Shown piece by piece: positions 57 to 10,104 of a DNA stretch of 10,104 nt (its first letter is position 1; every line of letters begins with the position of its first letter). A model generated the notes under the pieces. That model ran no database searches. It worked only from the letters and a program-made list of their open reading frames with translations, and was not told the DNA's origin. The position numbers were made by a program, and so were the translations under genes. Source of the stretch: Dehalococcoidia bacterium (GTDB taxonomy: Bacteria; Chloroflexota; Dehalococcoidia; Dehalococcoidales; CSSed11-197); NCBI GenBank assembly GCA_003563865.1, contig PWTP01000144.1:1-10104 (forward strand). The letters are read 5' to 3'.

Positions 57-347
57 TTAGCCGTTCAGTCTGACTTTTCGGTAACAATCACTGCAGTAGA
101 CTGGCCTGCCTTCCCGCGGTTGGAATGGTACTTCAGTTTCTTTGCCACAGTCGTCACATATCGCAGGGAACATTTGGCGGTGGGTTGTGTGTCCGTTACG
201 CCCGGATTTACGTGCCTGACGGCATTCCGTACAGCGTTTGGGGTCATTGGTGTAACCCTTGGTTTGGAAAAATTCCTGTTCCTCCACGCTGAAGGTGAAG
301 TTATGGCCACAATCGGAACATTGGAGTAGTTTATCCTGAAAACTCAT
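57..347 (-). CDS. Double zinc-ribbon protein (zf-trcl / CxxC-x17-CxxC type)
   Basis: A 96-residue protein made of two zinc knuckles. The first (residues 10-42) has C10-x2-C13 and C39-x2-C42, with the aromatic and EQEFF-type spacing typical of the probable zinc-ribbon (zf-trcl) family. The second (64-88) has C64-x2-C67, exactly 17 residues, then C85-x2-C88, with the family signature VPFQPREGRPVYC. The family is widespread in Clostridia and has no assigned reaction; nucleic-acid or protein binding is presumed. The start is set by AGGAGG 7 bases before the ATG. The gene is monocistronic here, with its own candidate promoter at 409-438 and a hairpin terminator at 2-26. All eight cysteines are present, so the protein looks intact. 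Confidence 0.9.
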   Translation of the reverse strand: MSFQDKLLQCSDCGHNFTFSVEEQEFFQTKGYTNDPKRCTECRQARKSGRNGHTTHRQMFPAICDDCGKETEVPFQPREGRPVYCSDCYRKVRLNG

Positions 348-408
348 TGGATGGCCTCCTCTTTTTTAAATTTTAGTTAGAGCCTGGGCCTTCCAATACT
401 TGAGTTAA

Positions 409-438
409 ATTAAAGGAGCATACTTGAGAAAATTGCAA
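409..438 (-). promoter_or_regulatory. Candidate sigma-A promoter of the zinc-ribbon gene, with direct repeats
   Basis: On the minus strand TTGCAA (438-433), an 18-bp spacer and TTTAAT (414-409) form a plausible -35/-10 pair about 60 bases before the start codon. A 9-bp direct repeat, ATACTTGAG on the plus strand, occurs at 396-404 and 420-428, exactly 24 bp apart and on either side of the -10 box. It is a candidate regulator site. A perfect 12-bp palindrome AACCAATTGGTT lies just upstream at 452-463. Confidence 0.4.
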
Positions 439-480
439 CAACCTAAACTGAAACCAATTGGTTCTACCTTAACACAAACA

Positions 481-504
481 GGTTTTGGCTGGCCAACAAA
501 AGCC
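481..504 (-). terminator. Candidate terminator after the PH-like gene
   Basis: Imperfect hairpin: 481-487 pairs with 497-504 (7 bp, one bulged base) around a 9-nt loop. Read on the minus strand it lies 33 bases past the PH-like stop and is followed by the T-rich stretch TGTTTGTGTT. The stem is weak, so this is only a candidate for ending the ligase-YkoP-PH transcript. Confidence 0.35.
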
Positions 505-536
505 TAAATTGTCCACTTATCCTTTGGTGGAGTGGA

Positions 537-812
537 TCATTTCCGATGTTCTTTCAGGTGTTTCTTGACTTCACTCAAGAATTGTTCTGGGTTATCAGGG
601 GCGACAGTAACGTATTTCAACCAGCCCTCTTTTTTGGTAATGGTTACCAGGCCCCACCACTTAAAAATAGTCCACATTTCTCCGAATATGCCTTTTGAGC
701 CAAGAGTTACATTGGCAACGTTGGAAAAATGAATTCTGCGTATAACAAGCCCTAAAAAGGTAATATTGATGGCCTGATTACTTGCCTTACATCCGAAAAT
801 GGATATGCACAT
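537..812 (-). CDS. Small bacterial PH-domain-like protein
   Basis: A 91-residue protein. Residues 24-86 follow the pattern of bacterial PH (bPH/DUF304-like) domains: a strand reading RIHFSNVANV, a GLVTIT strand, a YVTVAPDNP turn, and a C-terminal amphipathic helix (EQFLSEVKKHLKE) that caps the barrel. The VxPxNPEQF motif before the helix is the most telling part. These domains usually mediate protein or membrane-surface contacts; the role here is unknown. It is shorter than a typical PH domain, so the first strands may be reduced. The start at 812 is supported by AAGGAG 9 bases upstream. It lies 42 bases downstream of the YkoP-like gene on the same strand, most likely as the last gene of that operon. 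Family assignment is by pattern only. Confidence 0.7.
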   Translation of the reverse strand: MCISIFGCKASNQAINITFLGLVIRRIHFSNVANVTLGSKGIFGEMWTIFKWWGLVTITKKEGWLKYVTVAPDNPEQFLSEVKKHLKEHRK

Positions 813-854
813 ATTGCCTGACTCCTTATTGATGTAGTAACGGACTTGTCAGGT

Positions 855-1436
855 TTATAACTTGGAGCCGTATAGTTTCAGGAGTCCGTCCCGCGAAAGC
901 CATACTGCTTTGATTTCGATCGATCTACCAGCGGCTCTGTTTCTTTTATTTTCCTGGACATGATAGGTACTCACCAACACGCCTATATACCACCTGGCCA
1001 GCCTTATTCTAAGCGTATTGGGAAGCTCTAATACCTGAAAGCCAAGTCTCGTGGCCGGTTTATGGAGAAACGTCCAGCCGTAAAAGGCCCTCACCCGGCC
1101 GTATCTGCCGTTTTTTACCTGGGTGGCCAGAAGTTGCATATCACTTTTAAAATCATGGAGAAACTCCAGTTGCCCGGAGACATTTTGCAGGGAGCCTGGC
1201 CGTAGTTTGTCCTTAAACCAGCCATGGTCAAAATGCAGCTTCATGACCTGATCATCGGGTTCAACCTCATCGCCATCTACCAATTTCACAGCTCTCCCTG
1301 TATAACGTTGCAGTTCAACGCAGATGATTTTGCTATTTTTACCCAATGGCCTGGCACCAATAATGAACATATAAATACTGTGCACTATAGATACCAGGGC
1401 AGTTTTAACAGCTTTCGAGAAAATGAATGAGCCCAT
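855..1436 (-). CDS. YkoP-like domain protein
   Basis: A 193-residue protein resembling the Bacillus YkoP family. It has a hydrophobic N-terminal helix (about 9-27), a compact alpha/beta core with the ELQRYTGRAVKLVDGDEV strand-turn (41-58) and the hallmark LHFDHGW (67-73). A second half (about 112-160) contains LGFQVLELPNTLRIRLARWYI. Function is not established; as I recall, related domains occur alone or beside polysaccharide deacetylases and envelope genes. The ATG at 1436 is preceded by AGAGGG with a short spacer. The gene starts 18 bases after the ligase stop codon, so the two are surely cotranscribed. The basic C-terminus and hydrophobic N-terminus suggest membrane association. I see no catalytic motif. 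Confidence 0.7.
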   Translation of the reverse strand: MGSFIFSKAVKTALVSIVHSIYMFIIGARPLGKNSKIICVELQRYTGRAVKLVDGDEVEPDDQVMKLHFDHGWFKDKLRPGSLQNVSGQLEFLHDFKSDMQLLATQVKNGRYGRVRAFYGWTFLHKPATRLGFQVLELPNTLRIRLARWYIGVLVSTYHVQENKRNRAAGRSIEIKAVWLSRDGLLKLYGSKL

Positions 1437-1454
1437 TTAACCCTCTTGCAGAAC

Positions 1455-2854
1455 CTATAGCGATGACTGGTTCATGTTTGAGATGATGTTTTTCCATTTA
1501 CCCATGTTGCCGGACCGGTCTCCCAGGTTTGCTACCGGCTTTATATGTATGGCAGGGTTTGAAGCACCAAGGGTTTGCAGTTCTTGCTCCAGCCGCTTCC
1601 TTACGCTGTCGACTACCACCTCATTGCCTTCCTCAAACACCAAGCTTAAATGGATACCATCGTTTTCCTGGATTACCTGGTACTGCCTGATTTCACTGTA
1701 GCTTTCCAGTACATCCCAGAACTGGACGGGATGGACGGCAACCTGTCCCCCCGTGTGACCTTGAAGATAGATAACGTCGTCGTTTCGCCCGTTGATGGAG
1801 CCGATGCGCCGGAACGGCCGGCCGCACAAACAGGGCTTTGTGTCCAGGTTTACCATATCCGAGATCTCATAGCGGATGATGGGCAGGGTGAAGCTATAAA
1901 GGTTGGTAAACAAGATCTTGTGTCCCAGATTCCCATCGGGCACGGGCCGGTTGCATTCATCCACCACTTCAATAATGCCCAGGTCTTCAAACAGGTGCAT
2001 CCCGCTACCGGGGCTGCATTCCATCGAACGGATGCCCTCCTGGGTTCCGTAGATATCATAGATGCCACACTGTGGCCATGCATGTCTGAGCTGGCGCCTC
2101 ATCTCTTCAGTCAGCGCTTCGCCCCCACCGGCGATGAAGCGTGGATTTATTTTCAAGTGGCCTTGAAGCTGTTCGGAGGCCAGTAGCCCGAGCATGGAAG
2201 GGAACCCCGGAGGAGGTCCGGTTTGAGGGTGTTTAATTTCCAAACCAGTTCAACAACAGGGGTGGTAGCCGGCAGCATGTGGTAGTGATAAAGCCCGATA
2301 TCCATGCTTAGAGGGAGACGGTAACTATCATGCAGGGGGCTGGGGGAGCCGGTGGTGACAATCCTGGGCCGTTTTACTGAACAGGGGAATATTCCCATCA
2401 TGGCGGCGATGCGCATGCTTGCTGCCTGCTGCAAGCTCCATTCCTTCCTGTTTGATACAAACACCGCCCTGTGCCCGGAGCTACCGGCGGTGGTAAGAGC
2501 CCGGTACTCGCCAAGGTAGTATTCATCACTTGAAAGGCAAGCCAGATGGTCATGAATCTGAGAGAGCCGCAACCGGGGGTCGGTGACAAGCTGGTCAAAG
2601 TGCTGCATGTGGGCCTGTTTGTCCATAATCGGAAAATCCTGGAGGTCAAAGGGTTTGCTTATATTAAGGGTTTGGCATAATTTGAGATAAAAGGGGGACT
2701 TATGGGTTACCCAATCAAGAAGTCTGGTTAATTGGCGATATTGAAACTTCTCAAGCCTCGGGCGAGACCATCGTTCATGTCTGATCAGGGCCTGCCGGTA
2801 AGCCACAGCTCGGGCAAGGTCTCCCAGGCGGCGCAGAGTGTCAGGCCGTCCCAT
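1455..2854 (-). pseudogene. PaaK/CapK-type adenylate-forming ligase, frameshifted
   Basis: Two overlapping frames (2153-2854 and 1455-2243) join into one 466-residue phenylacetate-CoA ligase/coenzyme F390 synthetase-like enzyme. Such enzymes activate a carboxylic acid as an acyl-adenylate. The N-terminal half carries the ATP loop TTAGSSGHR (121-129). The C-terminal half carries YGTQEG, RYEISD, a Cys pair in CLCGRP, GRNDD, and the terminal MGKWK with the expected catalytic Lys. The break lies at the C4 run 2205-2208: restoring one base turns PDLLRGS into PDLLRGFPSML, which matches the family motif (PDxLxGYPS). All catalytic motifs remain, so the lesion is recent or a sequencing error. ATG 2854 has a weak GGAG 10 bases upstream. 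First gene of the minus-strand operon; the YkoP-like gene follows after 18 bases. The substrate is unknown. Confidence 0.85.
2205..2208 (-). other. Frameshift site in the ligase gene
   Basis: Run of four C on the plus strand (GGGG in the coding sense). One added G restores the family motif and a continuous frame of 466 codons. It is a homopolymer, so sequencing error, phase variation or a fixed mutation are all possible. Confidence 0.7.
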
Positions 2855-2975
2855 TTAGTATTAGCTCCGGACTTCTTTTGGGTTCTTGCACTTCATCTCC
2901 CGCCCAGGGTTTATTAAGCCTGTTGACAGTAGTTATTTCCTGGATGAATCTACCTAGATAATCGAGGCATTGAGC

Positions 2976-3004
2976 ATTATAGGCCTGCAAACCGGCATTG
3001 TCAA
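2976..3004 (-). promoter_or_regulatory. Consensus sigma-A promoter of the ligase operon
   Basis: On the minus strand: TTGACA (3004-2999), exactly 17 bp, TATAAT (2981-2976). Both hexamers match consensus perfectly. The predicted start near 2969 leaves an untranslated leader of about 115 bases before the ligase ATG at 2854. I saw no strong hairpin in that leader. Confidence 0.8.
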
Positions 3005-3027
3005 AGAAATTTAATGGTAAATATAAT
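2998..3027 (+). promoter_or_regulatory. Divergent sigma-A promoter of the hydrolase gene
   Basis: Plus strand TTGTCA (2998-3003), 18-bp spacer, TATAAT (3022-3027). Its -35 shares five bases with the -35 of the leftward promoter. Predicted start is near 3034, about 60 bases before the ATG at 3096. A second TATAAT at 3057-3062 has no good -35 but could be used with an activator. Confidence 0.6.
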
Positions 3028-3095
3028 AGAAAAGAAAAATTTCTGGACACTTAAGCTATAATAGTAATAAAACAGGCTTCAGGGGGTGGCATGAT

Positions 3096-4070
3096 ATGTT
3101 CTCTGAGGCGCAAAAGCTGAATTTAATATCCTGCCTGGTCATCTCATTTGGCATTACGCTTGTCTTGCTGACTGTCGGGCCAGTGGAAGCGACAAGCTTC
3201 AACCTGATTGCTTGCTCTGCTGTTTCGTTTAGCCTTTTATTCGTGCTGCTGGCTCTTACTCCGCTGGAACCATCGATGCATTATTCTGCTAGCCAGGAGG
3301 CCGATCATCATCTTGCTACAGGCCTCAATGATGTCCCGGAGCGGGTCATGCAAGATGCATGGCATGAGGCCAAAAGGCTTTATGGCTCTAAAGCCGGTGC
3401 CGTCAAGGGTTTTGCCTGCCAGCTTATAGAAACATACAAAGCAGCCAGCCAGATCGACACCATTATTTTATTCAACCCCGGTGGTTTTGGCTGGTCTTTG
3501 GCCAGGGATTCACCCGGCTGGAAAACGGTAATAGCAGGCATCATGCAGGAACTCTCAACTTTGCAACAAAAGGTGCTTGCCATTGACTACCGGCGAACAA
3601 GGCCAAGTCCTGTTGGAGTTATCAATGAACTGACAGCTTTCTGGGGGCTAAACCCGCTAAAATCAAGGGAACTGGTTCTAAGGATTGAGTTTTTAACCCG
3701 GCACCTGCCGGAAGTCAGGGTCATAATCGCCGGAGAAAGCAGCGGCTGCAATATTGTTGAAAGGACCATCAGGAAACTCAAGGATAACAACCGGGTGTAT
3801 GCCATTCAAACCGGGCCTCTACCGTTACAGCGGTGTATTAATTTCGAACGCTCGCTGGTCACCCGGCACAATGGCAGGCATTCGGATTGCCTGAGCACCG
3901 GCAATATCTTTGCCCTGATATGGGCCAACCTGAAGGCCTTGATTGGTATCGAGCAGGAACATCCCGGGAGGTTCCTCTTGCGTTTTGGCGCACCCGGGCA
4001 CCATTACTCATGGGAATATGAGGGCTTCAGGGATAAGGTCACCGGTTTTTTAAAAAGGCATCTGTCTTGA
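3096..4070 (+). CDS. Membrane-anchored alpha/beta-hydrolase-like protein
   Basis: A 324-residue protein with two hydrophobic segments (about 9-29 and 36-54) that would anchor it in the membrane, followed by a soluble domain. The domain shows alpha/beta-hydrolase features: a strand ending in ILFNPGGFGWS (oxyanion-hole-like), LAIDYRR after the next strand, and a nucleophile elbow VIIAGESSGCN (209-219) fitting GxSxG with Ser215. A late His pair lies in GAPGHHYSW (298-305). The acidic triad member was not identified. Substrate unknown; an esterase or lipase-like role on a lipid or envelope ester is a guess from fold and context. Strong AGGGGGTGG ribosome site 6-7 bases before the ATG. First gene rightward from the divergent promoter, with the acyltransferase 103 bases downstream. 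Confidence 0.7.
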   Translation: MFSEAQKLNLISCLVISFGITLVLLTVGPVEATSFNLIACSAVSFSLLFVLLALTPLEPSMHYSASQEADHHLATGLNDVPERVMQDAWHEAKRLYGSKAGAVKGFACQLIETYKAASQIDTIILFNPGGFGWSLARDSPGWKTVIAGIMQELSTLQQKVLAIDYRRTRPSPVGVINELTAFWGLNPLKSRELVLRIEFLTRHLPEVRVIIAGESSGCNIVERTIRKLKDNNRVYAIQTGPLPLQRCINFERSLVTRHNGRHSDCLSTGNIFALIWANLKALIGIEQEHPGRFLLRFGAPGHHYSWEYEGFRDKVTGFLKRHLS

Positions 4071-4147
4071 GTGGCCCCCAATTTTAATGGACTTGTTTTT
4101 AAAGCGTGCCGGTAAAAGGGTTTGTTTATGATAATTTTACGATCAAC

Positions 4148-4153
4148 TATAAT
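4148..4153 (+). promoter_or_regulatory. Possible -10 box before the acyltransferase
   Basis: A perfect TATAAT lies 20 bases before the TTG start of the acyltransferase. No recognisable -35 sits at the right distance, and the implied start of transcription would nearly abut the ribosome site. It is either a weak internal promoter or chance. Confidence 0.2.
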
Positions 4154-4173
4154 CGGGTGAGGCTTATAAAACC

Positions 4174-4887
4174 TTGGGAGACAAAGTCAGGATCCGGGCT
4201 GTCGTCTGGACGGTTGGTATCCTTGGTGGCCTATTGCTAAACTTGTTAAGGTTACCAAGGATAGTCAAAGTTACCGGTTACCGCAAAGACAAGTTTATCC
4301 CTTCCGGTAAAGGGCTGGTCGTTATCTACCGACACCCCTCCTTCAGGGAGCCGGCCCTGGTACCCTTTCTCTTTTTTCCCTGGTTCCTGTTTGACACCCG
4401 GCTGGTGCCCTTCTCCACTCCCAGCAAGCCCGACCAGTATGACCGGTGGTGGCTGAAAGCCGTCAGACCGGTATGCATCCCGGTGGAAAGGGGCAGCCAC
4501 CGTATGGTAGATCGAACCCTGCAGCGGATGAAGGCCAGGCTGGACCAAAAGGGAGTGCTGTTAATGGCCCCGGCGGGAGGCAGGGAGTTTAAGGGCACGG
4601 CCTTTAAATGGGTCAAGGCTGGCAAGGTCGAGGTAACCAGGCTTCCTCCCGGGCAGAATTACCGTGACCTGTTAAAGGAGTCCGAAGGCAGAGTTATGCG
4701 GCGGTTTCAGACGGGGATCGGCTGGTTACTGGATAACACCAAGGCTACAGTGCTTCCGGTTTGGGTTGAGACCGGCAGGATAAGAATGCATATAATTATC
4801 GGCGAGCAAACCAGGCTACCCGACGGGTTTTCCCGAAAAGCGACGGTTGAGGCCTTGGAGGACCTGTTGCTGGCACTCAAAACATAG
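4174..4887 (+). CDS. PlsC-like acyltransferase (LPLAT superfamily)
   Basis: A 237-residue protein with the four-block order of glycerolipid acyltransferases, which move an acyl chain to a glycerol phosphate or other hydroxyl at the membrane. Block I is HPSFRE (54-59), an HxxxxE variant of HxxxxD; Glu at this place is known in LpxL/HtrB-type enzymes. Block II is IPVERG (102-107). Block III is APAGGRE (132-138), in place of FPEGTRS. Block IV is VLPVWVE (193-199). The N-terminal hydrophobic helix (about 9-29) suggests membrane attachment. The start is TTG, the only reasonable one after an in-frame stop at 4150, with GGTGAGG 11 bases upstream. Same strand as the hydrolase gene and probably cotranscribed. 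The degenerate blocks suggest an unusual acceptor. Confidence 0.75.
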   Translation: MGDKVRIRAVVWTVGILGGLLLNLLRLPRIVKVTGYRKDKFIPSGKGLVVIYRHPSFREPALVPFLFFPWFLFDTRLVPFSTPSKPDQYDRWWLKAVRPVCIPVERGSHRMVDRTLQRMKARLDQKGVLLMAPAGGREFKGTAFKWVKAGKVEVTRLPPGQNYRDLLKESEGRVMRRFQTGIGWLLDNTKATVLPVWVETGRIRMHIIIGEQTRLPDGFSRKATVEALEDLLLALKT

Positions 4888-5203
4888 GGTGTCGCTTTAA
4901 CAGAGAGTTACGGCTGCCGGACAAGACGTTGTTTTAGCTTGAACGGTTACAGGTTGTACCGGACGTGTTGATTAAGGGTTTATGGTCTATTCCGGCTGCC
5001 AGGAGACAAGCCGCCGCATAAGGCGTATCGCTTCGCCAAAGGAGGCAAATTCATAATGATCAATTGCTGCCTTTTTAAATAGCAAGCGAAGGCGGCCGGT
5101 GGCTAACACATAATCGGCAGCTACAGCTATAAGTCAATGAGCCTTGGGGTGATTAATCGAAACCTTTCATGCTGGTTGTTTTAAGCAATCGACCTGCTAG
5201 CTG
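4888..5203. other. Gene-poor gap between convergent genes
   Basis: This 316-base stretch separates the acyltransferase from the MCM-like gene, which converge on it. I see no clear terminator for either gene. It holds a coding-like minus-strand remnant (4987-5130). On the plus strand, AGGAGG at 5040-5045 is followed by an 8-codon ORF at 5056; this is probably chance, because it lies antisense to the remnant. Confidence 0.6.
4987..5130 (-). pseudogene. Short coding-like remnant, unknown
   Basis: A frame open from just after a stop at 5136-5134 to TAG at 4989-4987 encodes 47 residues with protein-like composition, including DHYEFASFGEAIRLMRRLVS, an amphipathic helix. The only in-frame start is GTG at 5109 (40 residues), and it has no ribosome site. 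It reads like the C-terminal end of a decayed gene rather than random sequence. I do not recognise the family. Confidence 0.3.
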
Positions 5204-6640
5204 TTATTGGTGCCAGGCTGCCATACAGGCTTCCATCAAGGCAATCGCCTCGTCCAGGGTCTGTTCGTTGATTTCGGTGAATCCTGCCCTGGCAATGGAC
5301 ATAGGTATCCTTTTTGCATGGTCGCCCATCCTCAAATCACGGCACAGGGGGGTTTGTGAGTATCGGTCAATGAGTTTGTTAACCCTGGCTACATAGTCAT
5401 CGATTTCGTGTTCTGAAGCTGTGAATTTCGGAAAATGCTTGCGGCTTTCTTGCAGCCAGGATAAATACCAGCGCGAAAATTCAGAAGTTTTTTCCCCACC
5501 GATCAGCTTTCTCTTGAGGATTTCCTTTCTGCGGTTTACCTCAAGCTCCTCGGCCTTTACGACCAGGGCAAAACGGCTGAGAAGATTGGGGGGCACCCCG
5601 ATTTCCTGGATAGGGTCTCGAACAAATACCGTTTCTATCGGGTTGGCAAAGGCGATCATAATGAAGTGAGATTCGAAGGTCTCATGCACATTTGCCGAAT
5701 GGATACTGCACTTGCCGTTAGACAGCAGCTCATAACAATATTCAACATCTTGAGGGGGAATCCTGTCGAATTCGTCGGTCAAGACAACCTTCCTGTCCGC
5801 ATAGGCAAGGACGCCGGGTTTGCCTGTAGCCGGATTGCATACCAGGCCGGATTTGGTTGTGTTGGCCCCGACCAGCTCAATGTCCGACCCCAGCCTTCTG
5901 GCGATAATATCGCGTGCCAGCGTCCTTCCGCCGGCCGGTTCCCCTGCTACCAGCACGTGTGCAGGCTCGTAAGGCGTGGAAAAAAGGGCGCAGGTGATCG
6001 CCTTCTTCATAATATCATTACCCTCCAGCTCTGAGAAGAAGCTCTGTGCAAAACCGTCAAAACCCATTTCCCTGGCGATACCTATCACTTCTTTGCCGGG
6101 TTTGTCATCCAATTCGGTACCCTTTTCCTGTGGCATAAGGCTATATTCTCCGGCTTTTATCTGTAACCACTGAAATGTATCCTCAAGTGAGCTTATTTCT
6201 GTTGTTTGGTAATAATCGTGTTCGTGCTTGAAGCGGCATTCCTGGCAAAGGCATGCCCGGCAGTTTTCACAGATATAAATCGGCTCCACCCCGCAAAACG
6301 AGCACGGCGTACGTTCCGGGGCAAAGATTATTAACCTGTCGCCCTCGACCTCACGCTTGAATCCCGGCGATACCCCTAAAACATGCTCCACAGATACTAT
6401 GGTCGACCTGCTGGTATCCGAGATAGTCACAGTGACAGCGTCGTAGCCGCAATCGATGGCCTTGATGCGCTCGTAAGCCAGAAGGCTCCTGGCCCTATTG
6501 AGAATGGCACCCCATTTCCCTTTGCCTAAACCGAGCTCCTCCTTCCAGCAAAGTGCTATCTCTTCGACCGTATCCAACCCCATGCTTTCTAGAATGCTCT
6601 GCTCCAGATGTGATAAATTAAGTTTGATTAACTCCACCAC
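5204..6640 (-). CDS. MCM-type AAA+ ATPase with B-box-like zinc finger
   Basis: A 478-residue protein. An N-terminal helical segment (5-55) and a small domain (56-110) precede a B-box-like finger: C113-x2-C116-x7-C124-x2-C127-x4-C132-x2-C135-x3-H139-x-H141. The AAA+ core (about 205-380) follows MCM order: GEPAGGRT (233-240) at Walker A, SGLVCNPATGKPGVL in the helix-2 insert region, DEFD (289-292) at Walker B, sensor-1 FANP (N333), and LLSRF with Arg finger R356. A helical lid (about 400-475) ends it. The usual Walker A Lys is Arg239, so ATP hydrolysis may be weak or lost. The MCM OB-fold N-terminus is absent. MCM proteins are archaeal/eukaryotic replicative helicases and rare in bacteria. GTG start with AAGGTGG 7 bases upstream. 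Confidence 0.8.
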   Translation of the reverse strand: MVELIKLNLSHLEQSILESMGLDTVEEIALCWKEELGLGKGKWGAILNRARSLLAYERIKAIDCGYDAVTVTISDTSRSTIVSVEHVLGVSPGFKREVEGDRLIIFAPERTPCSFCGVEPIYICENCRACLCQECRFKHEHDYYQTTEISSLEDTFQWLQIKAGEYSLMPQEKGTELDDKPGKEVIGIAREMGFDGFAQSFFSELEGNDIMKKAITCALFSTPYEPAHVLVAGEPAGGRTLARDIIARRLGSDIELVGANTTKSGLVCNPATGKPGVLAYADRKVVLTDEFDRIPPQDVEYCYELLSNGKCSIHSANVHETFESHFIMIAFANPIETVFVRDPIQEIGVPPNLLSRFALVVKAEELEVNRRKEILKRKLIGGEKTSEFSRWYLSWLQESRKHFPKFTASEHEIDDYVARVNKLIDRYSQTPLCRDLRMGDHAKRIPMSIARAGFTEINEQTLDEAIALMEACMAAWHQ

Positions 6641-6676
6641 CTTATTGCCACCTTCGCTTTTGATTATTTTTGATGA

Positions 6677-6709
6677 AAAACCGGTTTTGTCCTTTTTGGC
6701 ACAGTGCCA
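6677..6709. promoter_or_regulatory. Paired palindromes upstream of the MCM-like gene
   Basis: Perfect 12-bp palindrome AAAACCGGTTTT (6677-6688) and perfect 13-bp TGGCACAGTGCCA (6697-6709). Their centres are about 20.5 bp apart, close to two helical turns. They lie 37-70 bases before the GTG start. A third, imperfect dyad (CTGTAACA ... TGTTACCAG) spans 6724-6750. They look like operator sites. I found no convincing -35/-10 pair on the minus strand here. Confidence 0.35.
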
Positions 6710-6821
6710 CTCGTATGTTCTGCCTGTAACAAAAGCAGTTCTGTTACCAGCTTATAATCACATTCAAAGCCAGTATACATAGCCCAGAGTATAATGCGGC
6801 TTTACCTCTGTGCTAAATTGC

Positions 6822-7241
6822 TCAATCAATCTTTCTTCCGGCATCCTGCGGGGATTGCGAATACACTGCCTCCACTTTTATGCTGGCCACACCGGTTATA
6901 TCAGCCCCGATGGCTTCTTTTATAACCCTGGCAAACTGTTCGAAAACAGGCCCGGTGGTATCGTAGCCGGCATACTTTCCCTTTATCTGGTATGCGGTAA
7001 ACGGGGGCGCCATTGGGGTTTTTAACACCAGGATGGCTGCCTGCCGGGTTTCCTCCAGGTTGGTAAATGTACGGCTCTTGCCCCCGTACAGATCGGCAAA
7101 CGCCAGCGTGTCATTATCCACTACCATCAGGCTTGCCTTGGGAGTAAGGTTGGGTATTCCATCTTTGTCCACTGTTGCTACAATTTTAGGGGCTGTCTGG
7201 TCTTTGATCAATCCAGCCAGATCTTCGTCAATTTTCGCCAT
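6822..7241 (-). CDS. Pyridoxamine 5'-phosphate oxidase-like flavin-binding protein
   Basis: A 139-residue split-barrel protein of the PNPOx-like FMN-binding superfamily. It shows the opening strand KIVATVDKDGIPNLTPKASL (19-38), the DTLAFADLYGGKSRTFTNLEE segment that binds the flavin phosphate (44-64), and a closing GVASIKVEAVYS strand (117-128). The length is typical of the short stand-alone members, which use FMN or F420 or only bind flavin. The substrate is not predictable; it is not the canonical pdxH enzyme, which is longer. ATG 7241 is fixed by AAGGAGG 8 bases upstream. The next gene on this strand is the MCM-like ATPase, 181 bases on. A strong promoter about 250 bases upstream gives a long structured leader. 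Confidence 0.88.
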   Translation of the reverse strand: MAKIDEDLAGLIKDQTAPKIVATVDKDGIPNLTPKASLMVVDNDTLAFADLYGGKSRTFTNLEETRQAAILVLKTPMAPPFTAYQIKGKYAGYDTTGPVFEQFARVIKEAIGADITGVASIKVEAVYSQSPQDAGRKID

Positions 7242-7364
7242 TTCTGTTCCTCCTTAAGAAAGGTCGTGGTGTATTAGTAAGCACAATAGGGTTTAGAATC
7301 AATAAGATACTTGAAAAACTTACAAGAACACGGGGTAAATAAGGGGTGTAAAGGGGTCAAGCGG

Positions 7365-7403
7365 CTATTTGGGCAGCCAGAAGAGTTTGCATACCTTTAT
7401 CAT
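7365..7403 (-). CDS. 12-residue leader peptide candidate
   Basis: ATG at 7403 is preceded by a perfect AGGAGG (7414-7409) with a 5-base spacer. It encodes MIKVCKLFWLPK then TAG. It lies in the transcribed leader of the flavin-protein gene, right after the hairpins at 7418-7480. A short ORF this well initiated in a structured leader suggests translation-linked control. There is no run of one amino acid of the classical attenuation type. Confidence 0.35.
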   Translation of the reverse strand: MIKVCKLFWLPK

Positions 7404-7417
7404 AAGCACCTCCTCTT

Positions 7418-7480
7418 CCACCTGGAGCCAGGGTGGATACTTACTGGATAAGTAACCTGTCAAGCCGGTTGAGCTGTTAC
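7418..7480 (-). promoter_or_regulatory. Structured mRNA leader with competing hairpins
   Basis: In transcript order (minus strand): hairpin A, 7480-7452, arms GTAAC-NNN-TCAA and TTGA-NNN-GTTAC around CCGGC; hairpin B, 7457-7435, 9-bp arms with one mismatch around a 5-nt loop; hairpin C, 7436-7418, CCACC/GGTGG plus inner pairs. A and B share 7452-7457, so only one can form at a time. Hairpin C ends 3 bases before the AGGAGG of the 12-codon ORF. This has the layout of a regulatory leader; I could not match it to a known riboswitch class. Confidence 0.4.
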
Positions 7481-7494
7481 CGGGCAATAACTGT

Positions 7495-7523
7495 ATATTA
7501 GTAAGCTGGTAAGCTGGTGTCAA
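7495..7523 (-). promoter_or_regulatory. Sigma-A promoter of the flavin-protein transcript
   Basis: Minus strand TTGACA (7523-7518, perfect), 17-bp spacer, TAATAT (7500-7495). The spacer consists almost wholly of the 8-bp tandem repeat GTAAGCTG x2 (7501-7516). The predicted start near 7488 gives a leader of about 247 bases before the ATG at 7241. A second perfect TTGACA at 7463-7458 lacks a good -10. Confidence 0.6.
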
Positions 7524-7562
7524 TAGGTTTTGGGGTAAAATTTCGGGGGGGGTGGTATTTAT

Positions 7563-7580: not shown

Positions 7581-7732
7581 TGTTAGTTTGTAAGTAAAAA
7601 CCGGTAGAAGCCGTTAATTAATGGTGGTAGAATTATGAATGCTGGTTTTTGCTAGTTAAAGCGTTTACCGTCCTGGTCTACTCTATTTACCGGACTTGTC
7701 ACATCTCCGGAACACCGGAAGGGCAGTGGTTG

Positions 7733-9226
7733 ATGGTAGAGGATAAGGAAAAAAAGAGGGGCAGTGCTAGGCCAGAGGAATTTATCCGGGAAAGGCTTTC
7801 AGAAACCCCCTTAGAGGGGCAACCCGGGGAAATACCGCCACTCGTTGAAAACCTGACCCAAAAAGGACCTGTTCTCGACACAGAAACATCAGGGGAACCG
7901 GTGCCTGCTGAGGCCACAAAACCTCCGGATCAGATTGAAGGCCGCATAGCACCGGATGACCCGGTGCGCATGTACCTCAATGAAATCGGTCAGACGGCGC
8001 TGCTCAGCGCCGATGATGAAAAGGCACTTGCCAAAAAGATTGAAGCCGGAAGACACATTCGCGCGATTAAGGATGGCTTTACTAAAGAGCTTGACTTGCC
8101 CCCGACCCCCGTTCAGTTGGTTTTGCATATGCTAATAGATCTGGGCAAAGCCCGGGAAACCATCCGGCTGCTGCAAGAAGAACTTGGGCTTGAGAAGTGC
8201 CAATACTTTAAAGGGGCTGTAACCAAATTGCTGATGCAGCAAAACCTCATCGATGAGATGCACCAGAAACATACCCGGTCGATCGCTGCCAGAATCGGCA
8301 GGGACCCGGCAGAGGTTGAGCGAGAACTTGTAAACATTTCCCTCAACACAAGACTGCTACCGGCAGAGGTTTTCGAGGCTGTGCCAACTGAAACCACCCT
8401 TAAGGAAATTGAAGCCGCGGCACACAACCAGGGCTTTGTTGATTCTTTAAGCCCAGTTGAGCAGCAGCTGAAGTGCCACCTCGATAATCTGGAGGTTGAA
8501 GCCGACCGGGCCGAAAAACACTTAACCGAAGCCAATCTAAAGCTGGTGGTAAACGTGGCCAAAAAATATACAAGTCGTGGCATGCCTATCCTGGATCTGT
8601 TGCAGGAGGGTAACATCGGCCTGATGCGGGCCGTGGAAAAATTCGATCACCGCCGCGGTTTCAAGTTCTCCACCTATGCCACCTGGTGGATCCGCCAGGC
8701 TGTTACCCGTGCCATCGCCGACCAGGCACGCACCATCCGCATCCCAGTGCATATGATAGAAACCATCCACAGGTTACTGACGGTAAGCCGCCAGCTCACC
8801 CAGCAATTCGGCCGCGAGCCGACGCGCCAGGAGATCGGCGCTGAAATGGACCTGCCACCGGAAACAGTCAAGCAGATTGCAGGCATAGCCCAAATTCCGG
8901 CTTCAATCGACGCCCCTGTTGGCGAAGAAGGAGACAGCCAGCTGGGTGACTTTATTGAAGATCAGGATGCGGTGGCACCGCCGGACGCAGCCTCCCGCCA
9001 GCACCTTAAAGAGCGGGTGGAGGAAGCCCTCTCCAGCCTGACCAACCGGGAGCGCAGGATTATAAAACTCAGGTTCGGGCTTGAAGACGGGCGGGAGAGA
9101 ACCCTCGAAGAGATCGGCACGGAATTCAATGTCACCCGGGAGCGTATCCGCCAGATAGAAGCCAAGGCCCTGCGTAAACTGCGACACCGGAGTCGCAGCC
9201 AAAAACTAAGGGATTTCCTCGAATGA
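7733..9226 (+). CDS. RpoD-like sigma-70 family RNA polymerase sigma factor
   Basis: A 497-residue promoter-recognition subunit of RNA polymerase. Region 1.2 is at about 75-106 ([11 protein letters not shown]). Region 2 is at 264-340, including [20 protein letters not shown] for -10 binding. Region 3 is at about 341-419 and region 4 at 425-497, with the helix-turn-helix [20 protein letters not shown]. Between regions 1.2 and 2 lies an insert of about 155 residues, a non-conserved region much longer than in typical Firmicute SigA (about 370 residues). Residues 1-72 are acidic, charged linker, not a recognisable region 1.1. I place the start at ATG 7733, with GGAAGG 9-10 bases upstream, rather than at TTG 7649. 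There is no dnaG next to it, so it may be a second primary-like factor rather than the housekeeping one. Region 2.4 predicts recognition of normal TATAAT boxes. Confidence 0.92.
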
Positions 9227-9746: not shown

Positions 9747-9852
9747 TAGAATCGCAACAATAGGCCAAATTTGTTAACAGTTGAGCTTGATAACTTTTTG
9801 GGTAACACAATTCATTGAATGAAGGCGATGTTTCCCTCTGTTTTGTTTTCAT
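9709..9852 (-). CDS. Hypothetical 47-residue ORF
   Basis: ATG at 9852 with AGGAG 8 bases upstream; the frame runs 47 codons to TGA at 9711-9709. It begins MKTKQRETSPSFNELCYPKS and has four Cys in all. It starts 49 bases after the stop of the partial gene at the right edge and overlaps the 3' end of the muconolactone-isomerase-like gene antisense by 38 bases. No family recognised. The ribosome site is good, but the codon evidence is thin. Confidence 0.35.
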   Translation of the reverse strand: MKTKQRETSPSFNELCYPKSYQAQLLTNLAYCCDSIKELRPAFFEVH

Positions 9853-9901
9853 ATATCCTGCTCCTTTCAATTCCTGTTATTTTAGGCAACAGAATCCTCT
9901 C

Positions 9902-10104
9902 TTAACAAGCTGCTTGAATTCCGGGGATTACCTCATAGTTCGTGATGTTATCATGCAACGAGACAATTTTTTCATTCAAGATTGCACGAATACTACGTCT
10001 AGCCGCAGCAGGTTTCTTTTGTAAGAGAAGAGCGCCCTCAATTGACACATATAAATAAAATATCTGCATGGCAAGAAATTTGGTGGGGTTCTTGGTTGCC
10101 AAGC
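9902..10104 (-). CDS. C-terminal part of a gene running off the right edge
   Basis: An open frame enters from the right edge and ends at TAA 9904-9902, giving about 66 visible residues. The helix-rich pattern KFLAMQIFYLYVSIEGALLL, then PAAARRSIRAILNEKIVSLH, resembles the ligand-binding C-terminus of TetR-type repressors (the EGALL motif in the last helices). This is only a resemblance; the DNA-binding end would lie outside the window. No ribosome site precedes the internal TTG or ATG codons, which supports a partial gene. Confidence 0.5.
   Translation of the reverse strand, partial: LATKNPTKFLAMQIFYLYVSIEGALLLQKKPAAARRSIRAILNEKIVSLHDNITNYEVIPGIQAAC

Follow-up and report, generated by a model that had tools for sequence, protein, structure and literature searches.

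An MCM-type AAA+ motor with a RAD51-type helix-hairpin-helix domain in archaea, and a possibly eroding copy on a Dehalococcoidia contig

Introduction

What kind of protein is an MCM-like ATPase encoded by a Dehalococcoidia bacterium, and is its motor likely to work? The gene lies in a stretch of 10,104 nucleotides, contig PWTP01000144.1 of assembly GCA_003563865.1, which is referred to here as the window. MCMs in bacteria are reported to be tied to phages and mobile elements, according to the available part of PMC5862659. A preliminary description of the window, made from its letters alone, proposed a non-replicative, possibly catalytically weak MCM relative carrying a B-box-type finger. Here we assign the protein to what is apparently an undescribed family, named HhH-MCM; no description of its architecture was recognised in the literature searched, which was thin in subscription journals. 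Our explanation as a whole, whose prospects we judge to be evenly balanced, is that the family has a motor role on duplex DNA, and that the window copy was acquired horizontally and has an eroding motor.

Gene and domain organisation

The features discussed are listed in Table 1. The gene is an open frame on the minus strand, and the plus strand of the same interval is interrupted by stops. Sequence comparison and structural models together show a predicted chain running from a RAD51-type helix-hairpin-helix (HhH) through a small β-β-α-β-β domain and an optional B-box-like finger to an MCM AAA+ motor, lacking the MCM N-terminal domains and the winged helix.

Table 1 Features of the HhH-MCM gene and its neighbours in the window. 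Residue numbers refer to the window protein.
Feature	Position	Strand	Remarks
HhH-MCM gene	5204..6640	-	478 aa, GTG start
RAD51/RadA-type helix-hairpin-helix, residues 1-55	6476..6640	-	
Small β-β-α-β-β domain, residues 59-106	6323..6466	-	Model secondary structure; Foldseek matches weak
B-box-like finger, residues 113-141	6218..6304	-	Ligands C113 C116 C124 C127 C132 C135 H139 H141
MCM-type AAA+ motor and lid, residues 167-478	5207..6142	-	Pfam and structural matches
Walker A GEPAGGRT (233-240)	5921..5944	-	Arg239 at 5924-5926
Shortened helix-2 insert region, residues 258-276	5813..5869	-	phmmer alignment to MCM3
Walker B LTDEFD (287-292)	5765..5782	-	Family alignment
Pre-sensor-1 hairpin, residues 310-323	5672..5713	-	Asn317; Lys or Arg in 156/157
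Sensor 1 FANP (331-334)	5639..5650	-	Family alignment
Arg finger LLSRF (353-357)	5570..5584	-	Family alignment
Arg437, probable sensor 2 (role inferred)	5330..5332	-	Invariant, 157/157
Acyltransferase neighbour	4174..4887	+	Within the order, this genome only
PNPOx-type protein, upstream neighbour	6822..7241	-	14/155 other genomes of the order

The preliminary description had the N-terminal OB fold replaced by a helical segment. The OB fold is indeed absent: none of the seven Pfam matches of the window protein is to an MCM N-terminal or OB model, and the HhH-MCM chain has no room for a winged helix. The segment is helical, and is more exactly described as a RAD51/RadA/Dmc1-type HhH (rmsd 1.2 Å over 55 residues, 20-30% identity), although in Foldseek residues 1-172 gave no match at E ≤ 0.001 and the E-values of the HhH were weak. 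RAD51, Dmc1 and RadA are the closest HhH relatives, and HhH modules are also found in NusA. The interest of this arrangement lies in an MCM engine with a different front end, in which a RAD51-type HhH replaces the MCM N-terminal domains across a conserved family.

The motor domain

The window protein matches the Pfam MCM P-loop profile over residues 194-363 with 52.1 bits, against a cut-off of 23.3; Mg_chelatase scores 26.1 bits, and AAA_3 17.6 bits, below its cut-off. When solved relatives are ranked by sequence, MCM3 comes first, followed by archaeal and other MCMs. A structural search with the model of the motor gave an MCM AAA+ fold, the best 50 rows listed all being MCM chains. A place in the MoxR or Mg-chelatase clade, named earlier as a possible better match, is therefore not supported. 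The MCM P-loop profile is also matched by all 83 family members of set A2 (E ≤ 0.1).

For the family as a whole we aligned 157 proteins, made up of 123 found proteins of 430-520 residues and 34 archaeal loci, some of them near duplicates. The motifs DEFD, FANP and LLSRF follow MCM order, as first proposed, and D289, E290, N333 and R356 are invariant throughout the alignment, as is R437, which is probably sensor 2. The helix-2 insert noted before is present, but it is not full length, with eight gap columns relative to human MCM3 in one phmmer alignment. To speak of a bacterial MCM is correct as regards the contig but misleads about the kind of protein, since the named relatives, among the matches listed, are archaeal.

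The B-box-like finger

Proteins with the first four finger cysteines were counted as finger members, of which there are 40 among the 157. All 40 have C113, C116, C124 and C127 (by definition of the set) and also C132, while C135 is found in 38 (His in the other 2), H139 in 38 and H141 in 37. The positions of the eight-ligand cross-brace set of a B-box are thus present. Nine zinc ligands had been proposed, but C130 is not conserved among the finger members and has been dropped as a ninth. The ligand pattern is B-box-like, but the B-box match of the window protein reaches 17.8 bits, below the Pfam cut-off of 24.1, and among PDB entries a MYND finger (E 0.0017) ranks above a B-box (E 0.41). Across the family, 24 of 83 members match the B-box at E ≤ 0.1, the best at 1e-5. 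The finger is probably a protein-docking module.

Family members and their relationships

The first protein search returned 245 proteins at E ≤ 1e-3, with 120 listed, and a profile built from 37 finger members returned 223, again with 120 listed; about 8000 candidates were scored in both searches, so that these counts are not totals. Among the matches listed, the finger proteins are 48-71% identical to the window protein, and the finger-less proteins are about 435-469 residues long and belong, where named, to Thermoplasmata, Thermoplasmatales, Thermoplasmatota or Helarchaeota. A contig scan for hosts of the finger subclade looked for exact matches to peptides of the window protein, so that relatives at 60% could escape it.

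A tree of the motor was calculated from the 40 finger members, 40 random members of the other 117, and 23 canonical MCMs. Canonical MCM separates from HhH-MCM with support 100/100, although the program warned that long branches separate some rows from the canonical MCMs. The finger group forms one clade (100/100) with the window protein inside it, grouped with P0002, P0007, P0005, P0006, P0030 and P0031 (99/98).

Changes in the window copy

Codon 239 is AGG, confirming the Arg reported at the Walker A Lys position. Lys is kept in 156 of the 157 aligned proteins and the window protein alone has Arg. This is the refuting outcome named in the preliminary description, homologues with Lys; Arg239 is therefore rejected as a family trait, and a catalytically weak family is not supported. 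However, Arg239 is one of several private changes at conserved motor sites, so that a weak motor remains likely for the window protein itself. Exchange of the Walker A Lys for Arg often allows nucleotide binding and hinders hydrolysis.

Radical changes were counted over residues 183-478 at sites conserved by class in at least 97% of the sequences. The window motor has 7 at 122 sites and ranks first of 157 (the others have a mean of 0.80 and a maximum of 6), with Arg239 left out because Lys and Arg share a class. Over the full length the window protein ties with P0039 at 7/143, and by exact residues it is second of 37 (8/113) and third of 83 (5/78). Besides Asn317 in the pre-sensor-1 hairpin, the changed positions include Cys433 (Arg in 155 of 157), His441 (Tyr in 156) and Pro270 (Leu or Met in 155). 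The catalytic residues other than position 239 are intact.

It is unlikely that the window copy is fully active, with Arg239 either an error of sequencing or a conservative exchange that the protein tolerates. In its favour, AGG is one base away from a Lys codon, all 478 codons are open with the other catalytic residues kept, and the contig carries a frameshift in a PaaK-like gene, which calls for caution about a single-base error at codon 239; one letter, such as one in this codon, could be an error. A base error would, however, explain one of the radical motor changes and hardly all of them. Where genes of the window are compared with their copies, the differences are commonest at third codon positions (62/115, 64/134 and 248/417), a pattern like real evolution rather than random error.

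As a control, the RpoD-type sigma factor of the window (7649-9226) also leads its set of 12, with 12/215 private changes against 0 to 11 in the other 11 rows. The whole contig may therefore evolve fast or under broadly relaxed selection, which weakens the idea of a decay specific to the MCM gene. A second control, the PNPOx-type protein, was unfair, in that it set one divergent row (20/118) against five close ones. The window sigma factor is the most divergent of the 12 compared, and the metagenome-assembled genome (MAG) holds at least two RpoD-like sigma genes (that of the window and one in G000:C50), with 64% protein identity.

Occurrence in archaea and the neighbouring genes

In a sample of 292 genomes from the archaeal phylum, 37 have HhH-MCM, the three genomes from which the search started included. 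A canonical MCM match of at least 197 bits is also present in 18 of the 22 genomes tested out of these 37, the other four (G963, G1070, G1095 and G940) having no strong one, and both proteins occur in each of the three genomes of loci L002, L003 and L004. HhH-MCM is thus usually a second MCM. All eight non-bearing genomes tested have one strong canonical match each. The family occurs in some of the Thermoplasmata and in Helarchaeota, as a rule alongside the replicative MCM.

Neighbouring genes were compared in 22 archaeal loci, comprising 20 that were fetched, partly favouring long contigs, together with L002 and L003; the family names of the neighbours were tested on one locus, L065. In 10 of the 22, HhH-MCM comes after genes for RIO1 and a KH protein that share its strand, and 8 of these loci have aIF1A as well. 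A NAD-synthase cluster is close by in 10 of the 22, and in seven it begins over the end of the gene or at most 10 bases away. The argS gene adjoins HhH-MCM in L002 (by similarity) and L003. Beyond argS in L003 there is a reverse-gyrase gene (363-3491). The recurrent neighbours are therefore translation, ribosome-biogenesis and NAD genes, and not recombination genes.

These neighbours are the basis of the strongest rival for the family, that HhH-MCM is an AAA+ protein with a part in translation or ribosome biogenesis, which would bind RNA or complexes of RNA and protein through its HhH and β-β-α-β-β domains. The HhH modules of NusA favour it too, as do the gene links between archaeal replication and translation proposed in the part of PMC2643942 available to us. 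We nevertheless consider it improbable: the RIO1/KH set is absent from the other 12 loci, the closest HhH domains are those of RAD51, Dmc1 and RadA, and the pre-sensor-1 hairpin is basic in 156 of 157 members.

The bacterial host and the contig

Within its order the HhH-MCM gene is present in one of 156 genomes, that of the window, and one genome in the class sample (1/393) and one in the phylum sample (1/400) carry it. Frames of about 510 residues in three of five genus-mates and in the window's own genome match weakly over residues 262-358, and are probably YifB/ComM-like. Apart from the protein itself, the protein collection contains just ten relatives of the adjoining acyltransferase, and the 155 other genomes of the order contain none. 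The PNPOx-type protein on the other side has matches of up to 58% in that order (Table 1), with none in the five genus-mates. The sigma factor gene is matched by genus-mates. A second copy of the block 616-4072, 82% identical, is found on a different contig of the MAG (L027, G000:C83, 340-3824). The similarity ends ahead of the acyltransferase and MCM genes, and the copy reflects either a duplication or the presence of a second strain in the bin. These features fit an acquired stretch between host genes.

The earlier remark that no mobile gene is visible holds, in that Pfam recognised none in the window. The phage collection gave no match to the window protein, the plasmid collection gave only the canonical MCM of a Methanosphaera plasmid, and a scan of viral contigs matched one pattern stretch but no relative; a phage or plasmid origin is rejected. 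Terminal repeats around 4100-7400 were rejected, since the pairs there are all short and imperfect, the longest inverted one being 21 nt at 76%. G+C was rejected as a mark of transfer, the gene being within the range of its neighbours.

Some other features of the contig were recorded. The PaaK-like gene (1455-2854, minus strand) is split into two frames near 2204-2207, both of which are matched in one frame by the L027 copy. A double treble-clef zinc protein (57-347, minus strand) has matches at the DNA level in almost every one of the 20 relatives searched, in some at several places. The stretch 9829-9935, of about 107 bases, is repeated in G000:C120, G001:C54, G001:C20 and G016:C63, and 7394-7543, upstream of the sigma factor gene, matches partially at three places of G001:C35. 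Neither the first stretch (on both strands) nor the second folds better than shuffled sequences, and both were rejected as structured RNA. The window has no Rfam match and no tRNA.

That the gene comes from a different organism, possibly an archaeon, and was joined to the contig by chimeric assembly is in our view quite improbable. With 184 contigs and a completeness of 77% the MAG is fragmentary, and the absence of the gene and the acyltransferase from the other 155 genomes would agree with this. However, genes typical of the order lie on both sides of the 10-kb contig (the sigma factor, PNPOx and the block 616-4072), so that a chimera would need two joins, and the G+C of the gene does not fall outside that of its neighbours. 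A part in anti-phage defence, like that of the MCM-like BrxL (PMC10164562, in part), is highly improbable, since the weak matches which favour it, to the PADLOC candidate PDC-M37B (27.5 bits for the window protein, residues 281-378) and to BrxL_ATPase (5 of 83 members at E ≤ 0.1), span part of the motor only, no defence or phage family was recognised by Pfam among the ten window proteins, phage matches are lacking, and the recurrent archaeal neighbours are housekeeping genes. P0067 has a weak PADLOC match to PDC-M37B of 31.6 bits.

Proposed function

Returning to the reading of HhH-MCM as a motor on duplex DNA, we suggest that its subunits would ring the DNA, and that Walker A, Walker B and the Arg finger would let adjacent subunits share catalysis. 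The HhH may grip duplex or branched DNA, as RuvA does for RuvB, and the short helix-2 insert, together with the basic pre-sensor-1 hairpin, may track duplex DNA, as proposed for ComM. As a second MCM alongside the replicative one, HhH-MCM would probably serve recombination or repair, by translocation or by branch migration. A Chloroflexota-like bacterium would then have acquired the window copy horizontally, and its motor would be eroding through K239R, K/R317N, R433C, Y441H and L270P. From these changes the window protein probably hydrolyses ATP poorly; it probably survives as a binder, one that may act, if it acts at all, as a subunit binding DNA or protein, or heads for pseudogene status. 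Against this reading it counts that the archaeal neighbours are not recombination genes, that erosion is also seen in the sigma factor, that the window copy does not rank first by exact residues and shares first place over the full length, that 4 of 22 bearing genomes have no strong canonical MCM, that the tree has long branches, that Foldseek gave no match at E ≤ 0.001 for residues 1-172, and that the other catalytic residues of the window copy are intact.

By analogy, a more specific and rather doubtful proposal is that HhH-MCM is a single-chain counterpart of RuvAB or ComM, an archaeal branch-migration motor in which the HhH would grip the junction or duplex and the MCM ring would drive, and that the finger branch reached bacteria, where at least one copy would be losing its motor and becoming a DNA-bound adaptor. 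If it were true, the MCM engine would have one more use outside replication, besides those in ComM and MCM8/9 (for the latter, the portion of PMC10400076 available). Should HhH-MCM prove to work in recombination or repair, it would give archaea a candidate motor open to direct tests. The bacterial copy would show, in nature, how an MCM motor decays or changes its role after transfer.

Comparison with known systems

The MCM replicative helicases (archaeal MCM and eukaryotic MCM2-7) differ from HhH-MCM, which has neither their N-terminal domains nor room for a winged helix, has a short helix-2 insert, and forms a separate deep clade. RAD51, RadA and Dmc1 have an N-terminal HhH domain in common with HhH-MCM, but their ATPase is a RecA core whereas that of HhH-MCM is an MCM AAA+ core. 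The MCM-like proteins of bacterial mobile elements likewise place an MCM motor in a bacterial genome, but here the Pfam, phage and plasmid searches of the window found no phage or mobile gene. BrxL of BREX, which resembles MCM according to the available part of PMC10164562, is like HhH-MCM an MCM-like AAA+ protein outside replication; for the window protein, the PADLOC and Pfam lists hold no BrxL match. ComM/YifB proteins share with HhH-MCM an MCM-like motor, a short helix-2 insert and a pre-sensor-1 loop; in ComM the insert is half the size of that in MCM, and Arg328 of the loop could contact the DNA backbone (PMC11612176, in the part available). ComM differs in having a Lon-like N domain where HhH-MCM has an HhH, and the TIGR00368 profile gives 11.3 bits against a cut-off of 362. 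In RuvAB, RuvA gives RuvB its grip on DNA, a division of labour between an HhH protein and an AAA+ motor. The RuvB profile scores the window protein at 14.5 bits, below its cut-off of 27, and the motor of HhH-MCM is of the MCM type, but the same division of labour would be found in HhH-MCM within a single chain.
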